A stretch of 64,000 bases of DNA from Pelosinus fermentans DSM 17108 (GTDB taxonomy: Bacteria > Bacillota > Negativicutes > DSM-13327): the NCBI RefSeq assembly GCF_000271485.2, contig NZ_AKVN02000001.1, positions 3,869,501 to 3,933,500 on the forward strand. The letters run 5' to 3'. Made by a program: the position numbers and the translations under genes. The notes under the pieces were generated by a model. That model saw nothing but the letters and a program-made list of their open reading frames with translations. It searched no databases and was not told the DNA's origin. Positions 48,794-51,748 of this stretch are shown piece by piece. The number at the start of each line of letters is the position of its first letter. Positions within the stretch are counted from its first letter, which is position 1.

Positions 48794-49080
48794 TCATTAT
48801 CAAGAAAAGCCCTTTAAAAAGGGTATAGAAAATGCGTGGAAAAATAATCGAACCGCAGAGACGCAGAGAACACAGAGAAAAGATAGGGTTAAAAATCTCC
48901 TCAGCGTCCTCTGCGTCTCTGCGGTTAAATCGTTCTATTTGCTCTGTTCGTCATTATCAAAAAAGTCCCTTAAAAAAAGCATCGGATGTCTTTTCTGACA
49001 CTCCTGTGATTTATTTCATGGCCGTTGCGAGCGGAGCGCGGCAATGACAATAGCGTCAAGTGGACATTTGGTGTTGAGCC
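48794..49080. repeat. ~290-bp composite intergenic repeat, copy B
   Basis: Matches 6382-6674 nearly base for base, with a few substitutions and small indels in A-runs. Inner inverted arms AACCGCAGAGACGCAGAG at 48851-48868 and complement to 48926. It contains only frames that mirror the repeat and are not counted as genes. Confidence 0.85.
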
Positions 49081-49083
49081 ATA

Positions 49084-49127
49084 AAAAATAAGCAGAAAAA
49101 CATATACATGTTTTTCTGCTTATTTTT
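49084..49127. terminator. bidirectional terminator before the peroxiredoxin gene
   Basis: AAAAATAAGCAGAAAAACAT pairs with ATGTTTTTCTGCTTATTTTT around a 4-base loop, with A/T runs on both flanks. It serves the peroxiredoxin gene on the minus strand. Confidence 0.85.
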
Positions 49128-49170
49128 ATGTTCAAACAGAGCAATTTGCTCTGTGAATCATTTATGTAAA

Positions 49171-49707
49171 TTATAGTGTTTTCTCACCGGGCTGCCAATC
49201 GATTGGGCATAATCCGCCAGTTTGGAAAGCTTTTAATACCCGCAATATTTCATCCACACTGCGTCCTACATTTAAATCGCTAACGATTTGATAACGAATT
49301 ATACCTTCTGGATCAATGATAAACAAACCTCGCAGAGACACACCTTGTTCTTCAATTAAAACATCATAATCTCTGGATACTTGTTTTGTAATATCAGATG
49401 CAAGTGGATAGCTAAGTTCACCTAATCCGCCTTCTTCTCTTGAAGCTCTAATCCAAGCACGATGTGAATATACACTGTCAGTACTAACACCAAGGATTTC
49501 TGCATTAATCTTCTTGAATTCATCTAACTTAGAATTAAATCCTTTGATTTCTGTTGGGCAAACGAATGTAAAATCTAAGGGATAAAAGAAAAGAACCAGC
49601 CATTTTCCTTGATAATCTTCAAGCTTTACAACATGCTCCAATGTTTCTATATTCTCTGTAGTAGACATAGTGAAATGCGGGGCTTTTTGACCAACTTTAG
49701 CTGACAT
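49171..49707 (-). CDS. 2-Cys peroxiredoxin (AhpC/TSA family)
   Basis: A 178-residue thiol peroxidase. The peroxidatic Cys is C50 in PLDFTFVCPTEI and the resolving Cys is C167 in GGLCPIDW. It reduces H2O2 and alkyl hydroperoxides using thioredoxin or rubredoxin-type reductants. The start at 49707 (MSAKVGQKAPHF) has GGAG upstream. A Fur/PerR-like box lies at 49726-49745. Start selection excludes a 20-residue upstream extension without homology. Confidence 0.93.
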   Translation of the reverse strand: MSAKVGQKAPHFTMSTTENIETLEHVVKLEDYQGKWLVLFFYPLDFTFVCPTEIKGFNSKLDEFKKINAEILGVSTDSVYSHRAWIRASREEGGLGELSYPLASDITKQVSRDYDVLIEEQGVSLRGLFIIDPEGIIRYQIVSDLNVGRSVDEILRVLKAFQTGGLCPIDWQPGEKTL

Positions 49708-49725
49708 GTAACCACTCCTTCTATC

Positions 49726-49745
49726 GATAATAATTATTGTTATTA
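49726..49745 (-). promoter_or_regulatory. possible PerR/Fur-type box before the peroxiredoxin gene
   Basis: GATAATAATTATTGTTATTA matches the Fur-type inverted repeat at about 14 of 19 positions and has the AT-rich symmetry of PerR sites. Because the DNA is AT-rich, the match is only suggestive. Confidence 0.45.
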
Positions 49746-49912
49746 AATAAATTCTATATTTTGTCAATAGCTTTTGTAATCTTTTTCTTTTAATTAACTT
49801 TATTTGATAAAGGATTTTTCATAATCAGTAATTTAAATATAATGAAATTGAATTCTATAGATGATAATATGAATAATTTTATATCCTTTATTTAAAAGCT
49901 ATTAAGATTACA

Positions 49913-50350
49913 TTATTTTTTCTTGCCGAAATCAGTCGTGGCGTATCCTCTAGTTGGGAAAGCACAATTTTCTGGAGCAATATTGCTATCTTCTGTCCGA
50001 GCAAATCCCTTACCTGCCGTACTGCAATCTTTTATATTATTATCTTCTTGTACAGGTTCGTCCTGCTTGCCAAAATCAGTATTACCATAGCCTCTAGGTG
50101 GTAATCCGCAGCTCTCTGAAGCGATATTACTATCTTCCGTCCGAGCAAACCCCTTACCTGCTGTGCTGCAATCTAGTTTACTATCATCCTCTTTCAGAGC
50201 TTCATTCTTTTTGCCAAAATCAGTATTACCATAACCTCTAGGTGGTAATCCACAACTCTCTGAAGCAATATTACTATCTTCCGTTCGAGCAAATCCCTTA
50301 CCTGCGGTACTGCAATCTGGCATATTACCCTCATTTTTTTTGGTTGTCAT
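49913..50350 (-). CDS. three-repeat cysteine-containing protein, unknown
   Basis: A 145-residue soluble protein built from three 36-residue units at an exact 48-residue period (residues 12-47, 60-95, 108-143), joined by acidic 12-residue linkers. Each unit runs DCSTAGKGFARTEDSNIA ... CGLPPRGYGNTDFGK and holds two cysteines. Units 1 and 2 are identical in protein although they differ at nine bases, and unit 3 is slightly diverged. There is no signal peptide, helix or known domain. It has an AAGGAGG-type ribosome site. It lies beside the peroxiredoxin gene on the same strand. A metal- or redox-linked scaffold, or a multi-core peptide precursor, are possibilities. Neither is shown. Confidence 0.75.
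   Translation of the reverse strand: MTTKKNEGNMPDCSTAGKGFARTEDSNIASESCGLPPRGYGNTDFGKKNEALKEDDSKLDCSTAGKGFARTEDSNIASESCGLPPRGYGNTDFGKQDEPVQEDNNIKDCSTAGKGFARTEDSNIAPENCAFPTRGYATTDFGKKK
49922..50317 (-). repeat. three 144-bp tandem coding repeats
   Basis: Units at 50210-50317, 50066-50173 and 49922-50029, each 108 bp, with 36-bp linkers. The first two differ only at synonymous third positions. Confidence 0.9.
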
Positions 50351-50553
50351 TGAATATACTCCTCCTTTTTTTTAGTAACTTATTTCGAAAGGCAACATTA
50401 ATATATTTAATTAGATCTATGTTTTCCTTTCTCTATTAAAACTATTCAACATTATTTTGTTTATTCCTTCTTAATTTTAAAATTTTATTAATTTTTTTTT
50501 GTCTTTAATAATAATTATCCATAAAGTTAGACAATGAGGATTTAATACAAAAC

Positions 50554-50587
50554 AGACCGCCGGTAAAGAATTCCTCACCAGCAGTCT
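50554..50587 (-). terminator. terminator of the metallophosphoesterase gene
   Basis: On the minus strand, AGACTGCTGGT...ACCGGCGGTCT (with G-U pairs) is followed by GTTTTGT. Confidence 0.75.
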
Positions 50588-50602
50588 ATGCTTTATTGCT
50601 CC

Positions 50603-51748
50603 TTATGCTTCTTTATCAAAATGGATCATCAAATCAATAATTTCTGGACAATTACCAATTCGTATCGGAGGGCCCCATGTACCAAAACCGCAAGAGACAA
50701 TTACCTGATAACGATCTTTTTTCAAATAACCCCAGTCAATTTCAAACATGCGCTTGGTTATATACTGATTAGGGAAAAACTGTCCATGATGGGTATGCCC
50801 GGATAACTGCAGATCAACACCATTAAGCTGTCCTTCAGTCAATTTGAAGGGTTGATGATCAAGTAAAATAATAGGCAGATTTGTATCAATACCTTGCATT
50901 ACCGCAGACAGATCCAGCCGCTGCTGTCCCCTTACCTTAACTGATGTAGGATCATCCCGTCCAACGATATAAAACTGATTATTCACCAACTGGTATTCAT
51001 CACGCAGTACGCAGACACCAGACTGTTTTAATTGCTCTATTGCAATCTGGCTGTCACTTCCGAGATATTCATGATTTCCAAGCACTGCAAATACACCATA
51101 TTGGGAATTCAATTTTTTTAAGCCTTCTGACATTTTCATCTTGATGAAACGCTGTACATCTTCATCAATGGTATCTCCTACCAGAAATACAATATCAGGA
51201 TTTAGTTCGTTAATTGTATTGACCATTTTTTCAAGACGAGTATTGTCAACAATCGTACCAAGATGCACATCTGACACCATAACTGCATGAATACTTGATA
51301 AATTACTCACATCCTTTGGAATCACCACATCATAACGCTGAACACGAGGATTACAAGCATTCCATCTCCCGTAAATCAAAAGCAATCCAACTAACATCAG
51401 CATAATCAAACCTAACGATGGCCCTTGGATGATCGGCCTATGAAACAATACATCACTTAGAAAATTTCCAAAGTCGATTATAATCCAGAATAGAAAAAAG
51501 TAATACGCTGCCGCAAGCCAGTAATCCCCAATAATAATAATGATATCATTCGCAAAGCCCGGAAATTTTCTTCTCCCGATTCTTCCCACCAATTTAGAAA
51601 TTGCTAAAAAAGCATATCCGCTCCAATAAAACACCGTATAAGGTTCTATTATGCTGCGGAAAGATTGAAAAAAGCGTAAACCAATATAATAATTACCTGC
51701 AGCATAAACCAATAACAATACACCCAATATCAGAATATAAGAATTCAT
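50603..51748 (-). CDS. membrane-anchored metallophosphoesterase
   Basis: A 381-residue protein with four N-terminal membrane helices (about residues 1-140) and a C-terminal calcineurin-like domain. Metal-binding motifs appear in order: MVSDVHLGT, FLVGDTIDED, VLGNHEYLG, LDHQPF and SGHTHHGQF. This is the YkuE/YaeI type, which includes UDP-2,3-diacylglucosamine hydrolase-like and other envelope phosphodiesterases. Monocistronic. Confidence 0.9.
   Translation of the reverse strand: MNSYILILGVLLLVYAAGNYYIGLRFFQSFRSIIEPYTVFYWSGYAFLAISKLVGRIGRRKFPGFANDIIIIIGDYWLAAAYYFFLFWIIIDFGNFLSDVLFHRPIIQGPSLGLIMLMLVGLLLIYGRWNACNPRVQRYDVVIPKDVSNLSSIHAVMVSDVHLGTIVDNTRLEKMVNTINELNPDIVFLVGDTIDEDVQRFIKMKMSEGLKKLNSQYGVFAVLGNHEYLGSDSQIAIEQLKQSGVCVLRDEYQLVNNQFYIVGRDDPTSVKVRGQQRLDLSAVMQGIDTNLPIILLDHQPFKLTEGQLNGVDLQLSGHTHHGQFFPNQYITKRMFEIDWGYLKKDRYQVIVSCGFGTWGPPIRIGNCPEIIDLMIHFDKEA

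Follow-up and report, generated by a model that had tools for sequence, protein, structure and literature searches.

In clostridia, PerR controls rubrerythrins and other oxygen-defence genes, and in C. difficile an operon rbr1-perR-rbo is known, as outlined in the regulon account of PMC11841134. A different point of comparison is CP12, a conditionally disordered chloroplast protein that is described, in PMC9406205, PMC10253348 and PMC8151241, as small, charged, poor in hydrophobic residues and subject to a redox transition of its cysteines. The PerR regulon and redox-controlled disordered proteins are already known, and the family of small repeat proteins analysed here is, as far as our searches show, new.

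The repeat protein gene lies on the minus strand at positions 49913..50350 (stop codon included) of the window, by which we mean the whole stretch of 64,000 nucleotides from Pelosinus fermentans DSM 17108 that was analysed. It was delimited from the list of open reading frames, the tandem repeat and the family searches; it encodes 145 amino acids and is preceded on the same strand by a Shine-Dalgarno sequence GGAGGA (GGAGG) at 50360..50365. The sequence repeats every 144 nt in three tandem copies (49922-50065, 50066-50209 and 50210-50353), and the corresponding 48 residues consist of a 36-residue core, referred to as the unit, and a 12-residue linker of variable sequence, the full linker being absent after unit 3. 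Repeat alignment and the A/B typing described below place unit 1 (DCSTAGKGFARTEDSNIASESCGLPPRGYGNTDFGK, type A) at 50210..50317 and unit 3 (DCSTAGKGFARTEDSNIAPENCAFPTRGYATTDFGK, type B) at 49922..50029; unit 2, identified by repeat alignment as a type A duplicate, occupies 50066..50173, and all three are on the minus strand.

The two halves of a unit resemble each other, C-S-T-A-G-K-G-F-A-R-T-E being matched by C-G-L-P-P-R-G-Y-G-N-T-D. Over 17 units this likeness gave p ~6e-4 in a column-permutation test, and the half-unit pattern common to the family is C-x5-G[FY]-[AG]-x-T-[DE]; in members from family f18 the second half is longer ahead of its GF. Across 12 two-unit proteins, the positions that never vary are, in the first unit, S, G, G-F-A-R-T, E and G-F and, in the second, C, S, G, G-F-A-R, C, P and F. 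The stretch before the first unit is 8-17 residues long and variable among members. Both cysteines of the pair are present in 23 of 24 aligned units, neither in one and a single one in none, a count that leaves out the truncated second unit of a short copy in G008. The first unit of G048 has lost both, so the first-unit cysteines are slightly less constrained than GxGFAR and cysteines are not required in every unit.

Two-unit proteins predominate; they begin with a type A unit (mostly ...ESCGLP.RGF) and end with a type B unit (mostly ...ENCA[FN]P.RGF). When units were compared across taxonomic families, 15 of 17 had their closest counterpart in a unit of their own type, both misses being units of G048; this comparison omits members from f18, the second copies of G050 and of G008, G002 and the near-duplicates. 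Because the types agree across families, A-B is likely the ancestral plan, with the window protein arranged as A-A-B. At the level of residue alignment, a half-repeat origin of the unit and the A/B architecture are thus both demonstrated.

The first-pass annotation had described three 48-residue repeats kept identical by selection, the first two of which differed at nine bases, all synonymous, and had not just been copied recently. The nine differences were reproduced exactly: units 1 and 2 share all 36 amino acids and differ only at synonymous sites (Nei-Gojobori dS 0.52, dN 0), and nine out of nine has p ~1.3e-6 under random placement of changes over sites. This substitution pattern demonstrates strong purifying selection on the protein sequence of the unit, as had been claimed. 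There are indeed three repeats, but only two of them are identical because unit 3 differs from units 1 and 2 at 7 of 36 residues (dN 0.095, dS 0.76-1.21), and the linker varies. The statement on age was mostly borne out. G004, the sister genome, shares the A-A-B order, and between the two genomes the adjoining peroxiredoxin has diverged by a dS of only 0.05, far less than units 1 and 2 from each other (0.52), from which the unit duplication looks older than the split of the genomes. Same-position units of the window genome and G004 have dS of 0.09-0.52 and dN up to 0.012, and the dS among A units is 0.19-0.52 between the two genomes and 0.24-0.52 within genomes. The A units, however, are not cleanly orthologous, so that sequence exchange among them is possible.

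No known domain had been recognised in the protein, and no described family was matched in our searches either. Pfam, inspected over its whole range to E 10, returned only NDUFB11 at E 0.16 and no CP12 family; no NCBIfam model matched, and the PDB contained no credible relative (best E 0.84 and 0.41, chance-like). A plasmid search gave no match, Rfam nothing within window positions 49000-51500, and a literature text search for peptide fragments of the motif no paper containing the fragments searched.

Relatives of the repeat protein were found by a whole-protein search in six of the 10 genomes of its own family and in 15 of 300 genomes of its class, including G154, whose match (E 0.0019, not recovered by the unit profile) was treated as chance. 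The unit profile matched 16 of 380 class genomes, and 14 of these were counted as carriers; G294 and G151 were dropped at E 0.002-0.003, one being a partial match in a long frame and one carrying a stop. A second profile, in which a divergent paralogue was included, recovered the same 14 genomes together with two divergent one-unit paralogues, followed by a gap to E 0.002. Some match at E <=0.5 was present in 98 of the 380 genomes, but the other 84 had a best E of 0.002 or worse with short partial matches, some with stops, and were regarded as chance. The one-unit paralogues, at E 1e-15 and 1e-13, lie inside the carrier genomes G008 (G008:C4) and G006 (G006:C1), and both are taken as real divergent paralogues; the one in G008 had itself been built into the second profile, its earlier unit-profile score being E 0.0035. 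They are 63 aa long and occur in two species (L132:1305-1496 and L147:1085-1276), and the G006 copy (L147) is situated close to an ORF that encodes FCWPR-type Cys-rich repeats and has a coat-like appearance.

Of 398 genomes sampled across the phylum, among them the window genome and at least 13 further members of its class, the window genome alone matched, and a degenerate-pattern scan of named genome contigs returned one relative, the MAG contig of G004. The 14 carriers, which include the near-duplicates G000/G004, G006/G008 and G017/G034, span six taxonomic families (f1, f9, f16, f18, f24 and f31) and provided the 16 loci analysed. Repeat number, counted across these relatives, ranges from one to three units per member. 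The Cys-Gly-Tyr pattern singled out in the first-pass annotation is conserved, as Cys-Gly-Phe/Tyr, across the six families, which, together with the lack of a match to any described family, leaves that annotation unrefuted. In one relative, the draft MAG G004 (L020 / L002), a frameshift, either an assembly error or a real truncation, separates units 2 and 3. The second, short copy in G008 (L025:8014-8211) comprises one full unit and the truncated start of another; its neighbours encode a universal stress protein and a member of the low-molecular-weight phosphatase family. In two congeners, G005 and G009, the metallophosphoesterase-peroxiredoxin neighbourhood is present and the repeat gene is missing (L118 1317-1501 and L119 2034-2245), and G003 lacks both peroxiredoxin locus and repeat gene. 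Since G005 and G009 retain the peroxiredoxin locus without it, the repeat gene is dispensable.

Upstream of the repeat gene, a PerR-like box GATAATTATTATTA at 50506..50519 on the minus strand is a perfect match, equalled in 0 of 300 shuffles. A second PerR-like box, GATAATAATTATTG on the plus strand at 49726..49739, has one mismatch to the scan pattern and is located ~18 nt ahead of the start codon of the peroxiredoxin gene, which is on the minus strand. Scanning the window genome with GATAATNATTATYA at <=1 mismatch gave 120 matches versus 81 for the reversed control (palindromes counted twice), so that loose matches mean little. The perfect matches fall into two classes, symmetric (...TCA) and ...TTA. 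Four of the five perfect GATAATNATTATTA (...TTA) sites precede rubrerythrin with a divergent redoxin, ferritin, Fe-SOD and the repeat gene, and the fifth lies inside a ytxC-like gene. Seven positions carry the symmetric GATAATNATTATCA; the three whose neighbours were tested stand before genes for a TonB receptor, a periplasmic binding protein and FeoA, as would be expected of Fur sites, and the others have small or untested ORFs as neighbours, stand before a dehydrogenase-like ORF, fall within a gene or have no ORF in range.

Other carriers served as an independent check. Exact TAATAATNATTATC occurs at 11 sites in G017, G048 and G050 versus one for the reversed control. Seven of the sites have A or T in the middle and stand before CydA (cytochrome bd subunit I), rubrerythrin, AhpC (twice), MsrB with a divergent nitroreductase, the G017 repeat gene and a PerR homologue, the last being a FUR-family protein with 2fe3 (PerR) as its best PDB match. 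The four with C in the middle stand before FeoB, ExbB, a STAS-domain protein and one further ORF. Considering the window genome and three others together, PerR-like boxes stand before rubrerythrin, SOD, ferritin, AhpC, MsrB, cytochrome bd and, once, a PerR homologue.

At the 16 loci, a box was defined as the 13-mer AATAATNATTATC with <=1 mismatch within 300 nt, the 13-mer having been fixed after inspection of the sites. By this definition a PerR-like box lies ahead of the repeat gene in seven loci and ahead of an operon-heading peroxiredoxin in three more (10/16), with peroxiredoxin and repeat gene ~60 to 210 nt apart in the three presumed operons. PerR-type boxes also occur where the repeat gene and the peroxiredoxin are not linked (G017, G034) and in genomes without a peroxiredoxin ortholog (G048, G050a). 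Six of the 16 loci (G006, G008a, G008b, G050b, G114 and G002) have no convincing box; the adjoining peroxiredoxin of G006 and G008 has a 2-mismatch box only, equalled by 42 and 64 of 300 shuffles. A perfect TTGACA is found upstream of the box in seven of the 10 boxed promoters, giving them sigma-70-type hexamers. The regulator was looked for in two genomes and found in both: the window genome encodes four FUR proteins, of which L116, by its best PDB match (2fe3, Peroxide operon regulator, E 1.6e-24), is its PerR, and L151 of G048 matches 2fe3 at E 4.4e-26. Read from the DNA, these boxes establish a PerR-type operator on the repeat gene, and the gene very probably belongs to the PerR regulon.

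Two AlphaFold2 runs on shallow alignments yielded no predicted fold, with pLDDT 52 and pTM 0.13 for the window protein (15-sequence alignment) and pLDDT 51 and pTM 0.14 for a two-unit member (12-sequence alignment). In a charge-hydropathy analysis, 8 of 15 members fell on the disordered side, near the boundary, and the peroxiredoxin and redoxin controls fell on the folded side. At this alignment depth the lack of a predicted fold fits a flexible chain without proving it, and the charge-hydropathy values do not separate the members clearly; the repeat protein is probably a flexible chain.

We suggest that the gene encodes a small protein, probably cytosolic, that belongs to the peroxide (PerR) regulon. 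Judging from the operator-like sites, PerR would repress the gene until peroxide or oxygen lifts repression, and derepression would occur together with that of rubrerythrin, SOD, ferritin and AhpC/peroxiredoxin. The product would be a chain of short, near-invariant stations (S-x-x-G-x-G-F-A-R-T ... E-x-C ... G-F) on variable linkers, in which the GxGFART motif may dock a conserved partner and several stations per chain may confer avidity. By analogy with CP12, the two cysteines of each unit might act as a pair that responds to redox state or metal and so switches the chain between a closed and an open form. Peroxiredoxin would be a frequent companion and no obligate partner. The regulation is well supported by the sequence comparisons, and the mechanism is inferred. 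We therefore offer the overall reading, a peroxide-induced flexible multivalent protein with GxGFART docking and paired cysteines responding to redox or metal, tentatively and with somewhat less than even confidence. The first-pass annotation had considered a metal- or redox-binding scaffold; the redox side of that proposal is favoured by the PerR-type operator, seen also where no peroxiredoxin is linked, and by the joint retention of the cysteine pair. We consider it unlikely that the protein represents a new type of stress factor, namely a peroxide-induced multivalent linear-motif protein whose GF(A/G)xT stations each bind a conserved target and whose peroxide-driven intra-unit disulfides lock or release the assembly. 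Its target would then perhaps be an oxygen-sensitive enzyme or RNA, and the protein might be a bacterial counterpart of CP12 in principle or a redox-gated condensate in which [KR]G[FY] plus Cys act as stickers and acidic stretches as spacers.

The metal side of the scaffold proposal leads to a rather unlikely alternative, in which the unit is a metal buffer or chaperone that holds Fe(II) or Zn(II) via its two cysteines and acidic side chains and limits Fenton chemistry under peroxide. Consistent with such a role, ferritin has the same type of box, the unit cysteines are kept or lost jointly, extra linker cysteines (CGCGPTDC, CCQGC) occur just before the second unit in the f9 members G017, G034 and G050a, and the linkers of G026 and G039 have one extra cysteine each. 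Ligands are scarce, however, with two cysteines per core unit and 0-2 His per whole protein; the invariant residues are those of GxGFAR rather than ligands, and one unit lacks both cysteines.

We surveyed the ORFs of the 16 loci in 14 genomes by mutual similarity and reading by eye, with some neighbours run against Pfam. The peroxiredoxin neighbour reported in the first-pass annotation is real, as are the Fur/PerR-like boxes: a typical 2-Cys peroxiredoxin (AhpC/TSA, PF00578, 178 aa) is encoded downstream of the repeat gene at 49171..49707 on the minus strand. Such a peroxiredoxin is the commonest companion, adjacent in 8 of 16 loci in families f1, f16 and f18 and on either side, and its ortholog (>=75% identity) is present in 10 of 14 carriers versus 14 of 366 other class genomes, relatedness being ignored in this comparison. 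Adjacency and co-occurrence would both fit a dedicated electron carrier or substrate of this enzyme that passes thiol equivalents. That role is nevertheless improbable: four carriers have no peroxiredoxin ortholog and two have it unlinked, 14 genomes have the peroxiredoxin without the repeat gene (24 of 380 class genomes carry the ortholog at E <=1e-60, 10 of them being carriers), and no CxxC motif common to the core units was found. The peroxiredoxin probably accompanies the repeat protein as a member of the same regulon and not as an obligatory partner.

Other features of these neighbourhoods were recorded. LysR-type, EamA-type and ABC-type proteins, assigned by eye, recur in up to four loci, mostly kilobases off. 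An old-yellow-enzyme-family FMN oxidoreductase (PF00724) adjoins the repeat gene in G048 and G114, from two other families (L031:8069-9166 and L027:2133-3143), one being downstream of the repeat gene and one divergent. Selenocysteine peroxiredoxins are known enzymes, and the peroxiredoxin orthologs of G011 and G031, which belong to one genus, have an in-frame TGA at the catalytic Cys of FTFVCPTE (FTFV-stop-PTE), at L130 near 1640-1660 on the plus strand and in L131 on the minus strand; they are probably selenocysteine peroxiredoxins.

Carriers are mostly spore-forming bacteria, and the protein could instead be a forespore or spore component guarding spores against peroxide. Genes for small acid-soluble spore proteins (SASP, PF00269) were detected in 13 of 14 carriers versus 18 of 36 non-carriers, the latter hand-chosen and not random, and the divergent one-unit paralogue in G006 has the gene with Cys-rich FCWPR-type repeats nearby. 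In the 5'UTR (window 50360-50500), a stretch around GTTGAATA..TTTA..AGAGAAAGGAGAACAT is kept, by alignment, upstream of the repeat gene within the genus and partly kept at the unlinked second copy in G008. We take this element to resemble a forespore-type promoter consensus; it fits a forespore-sigma-like consensus with 0-1 mismatches at five loci, four of which form two near-identical pairs. The spore role is quite improbable in our assessment: G024 has the repeat gene and no detected SASP, the 18 SASP-positive genomes among the chosen non-carriers lack the repeat gene, the boxed promoters have sigma-70-type hexamers, and the sigma-like element is equalled by 1-18 of 300 single-base shuffles, with two more loci matching at unrelated positions. 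The spore link of the 5'UTR element is a lead only.

Multi-core RiPP precursors contain repeated conserved cores with spacers. Such a precursor, with cores modified and cut out, had been the other suggestion of the first-pass annotation, and its tandem conserved cores, variable linkers and variable copy number agree with it, but we regard it as highly improbable because no recurring maturase, protease or exporter was recognised in the 16 neighbourhoods by eye and mutual similarity, the variable N-terminus offers no conserved leader, NCBIfam gave no match, and the PerR-type operator is one common to detoxification genes.

If the reading as a peroxide-induced multivalent docking protein is correct, the peroxide regulon of these bacteria would include, besides enzymes, an uncharacterised tandem-repeat cysteine protein under tight selection, which would provide a new testable route to oxygen or peroxide tolerance. 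The presence of the gene in the window genome and its absence from G005 and G009 of the same genus offer a ready natural comparison, and the motif is short enough to serve as bait for a partner.

Compared with multi-core RiPP precursors, the repeat protein has the repeated conserved cores and the spacers, but it is without a conserved leader and without a recognised linked modifying enzyme. The regulon account in PMC11841134 mentions, in the passages considered here, no repeat protein of this kind, and the box in the window was inferred from sequence alone. The likeness to the PerR regulon of anaerobic Firmicutes (C. acetobutylicum, C. difficile) lies in the control by PerR of rubrerythrin and other detoxification genes, which would apply here as well. 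The repeat protein differs from CP12 in having tandem units, in having no sequence relation to it (no CP12 family match in Pfam) and in that no oxygenic photosynthesis is involved, yet it shares with CP12 a small size, charge, few hydrophobic residues, cysteines and probable disorder.
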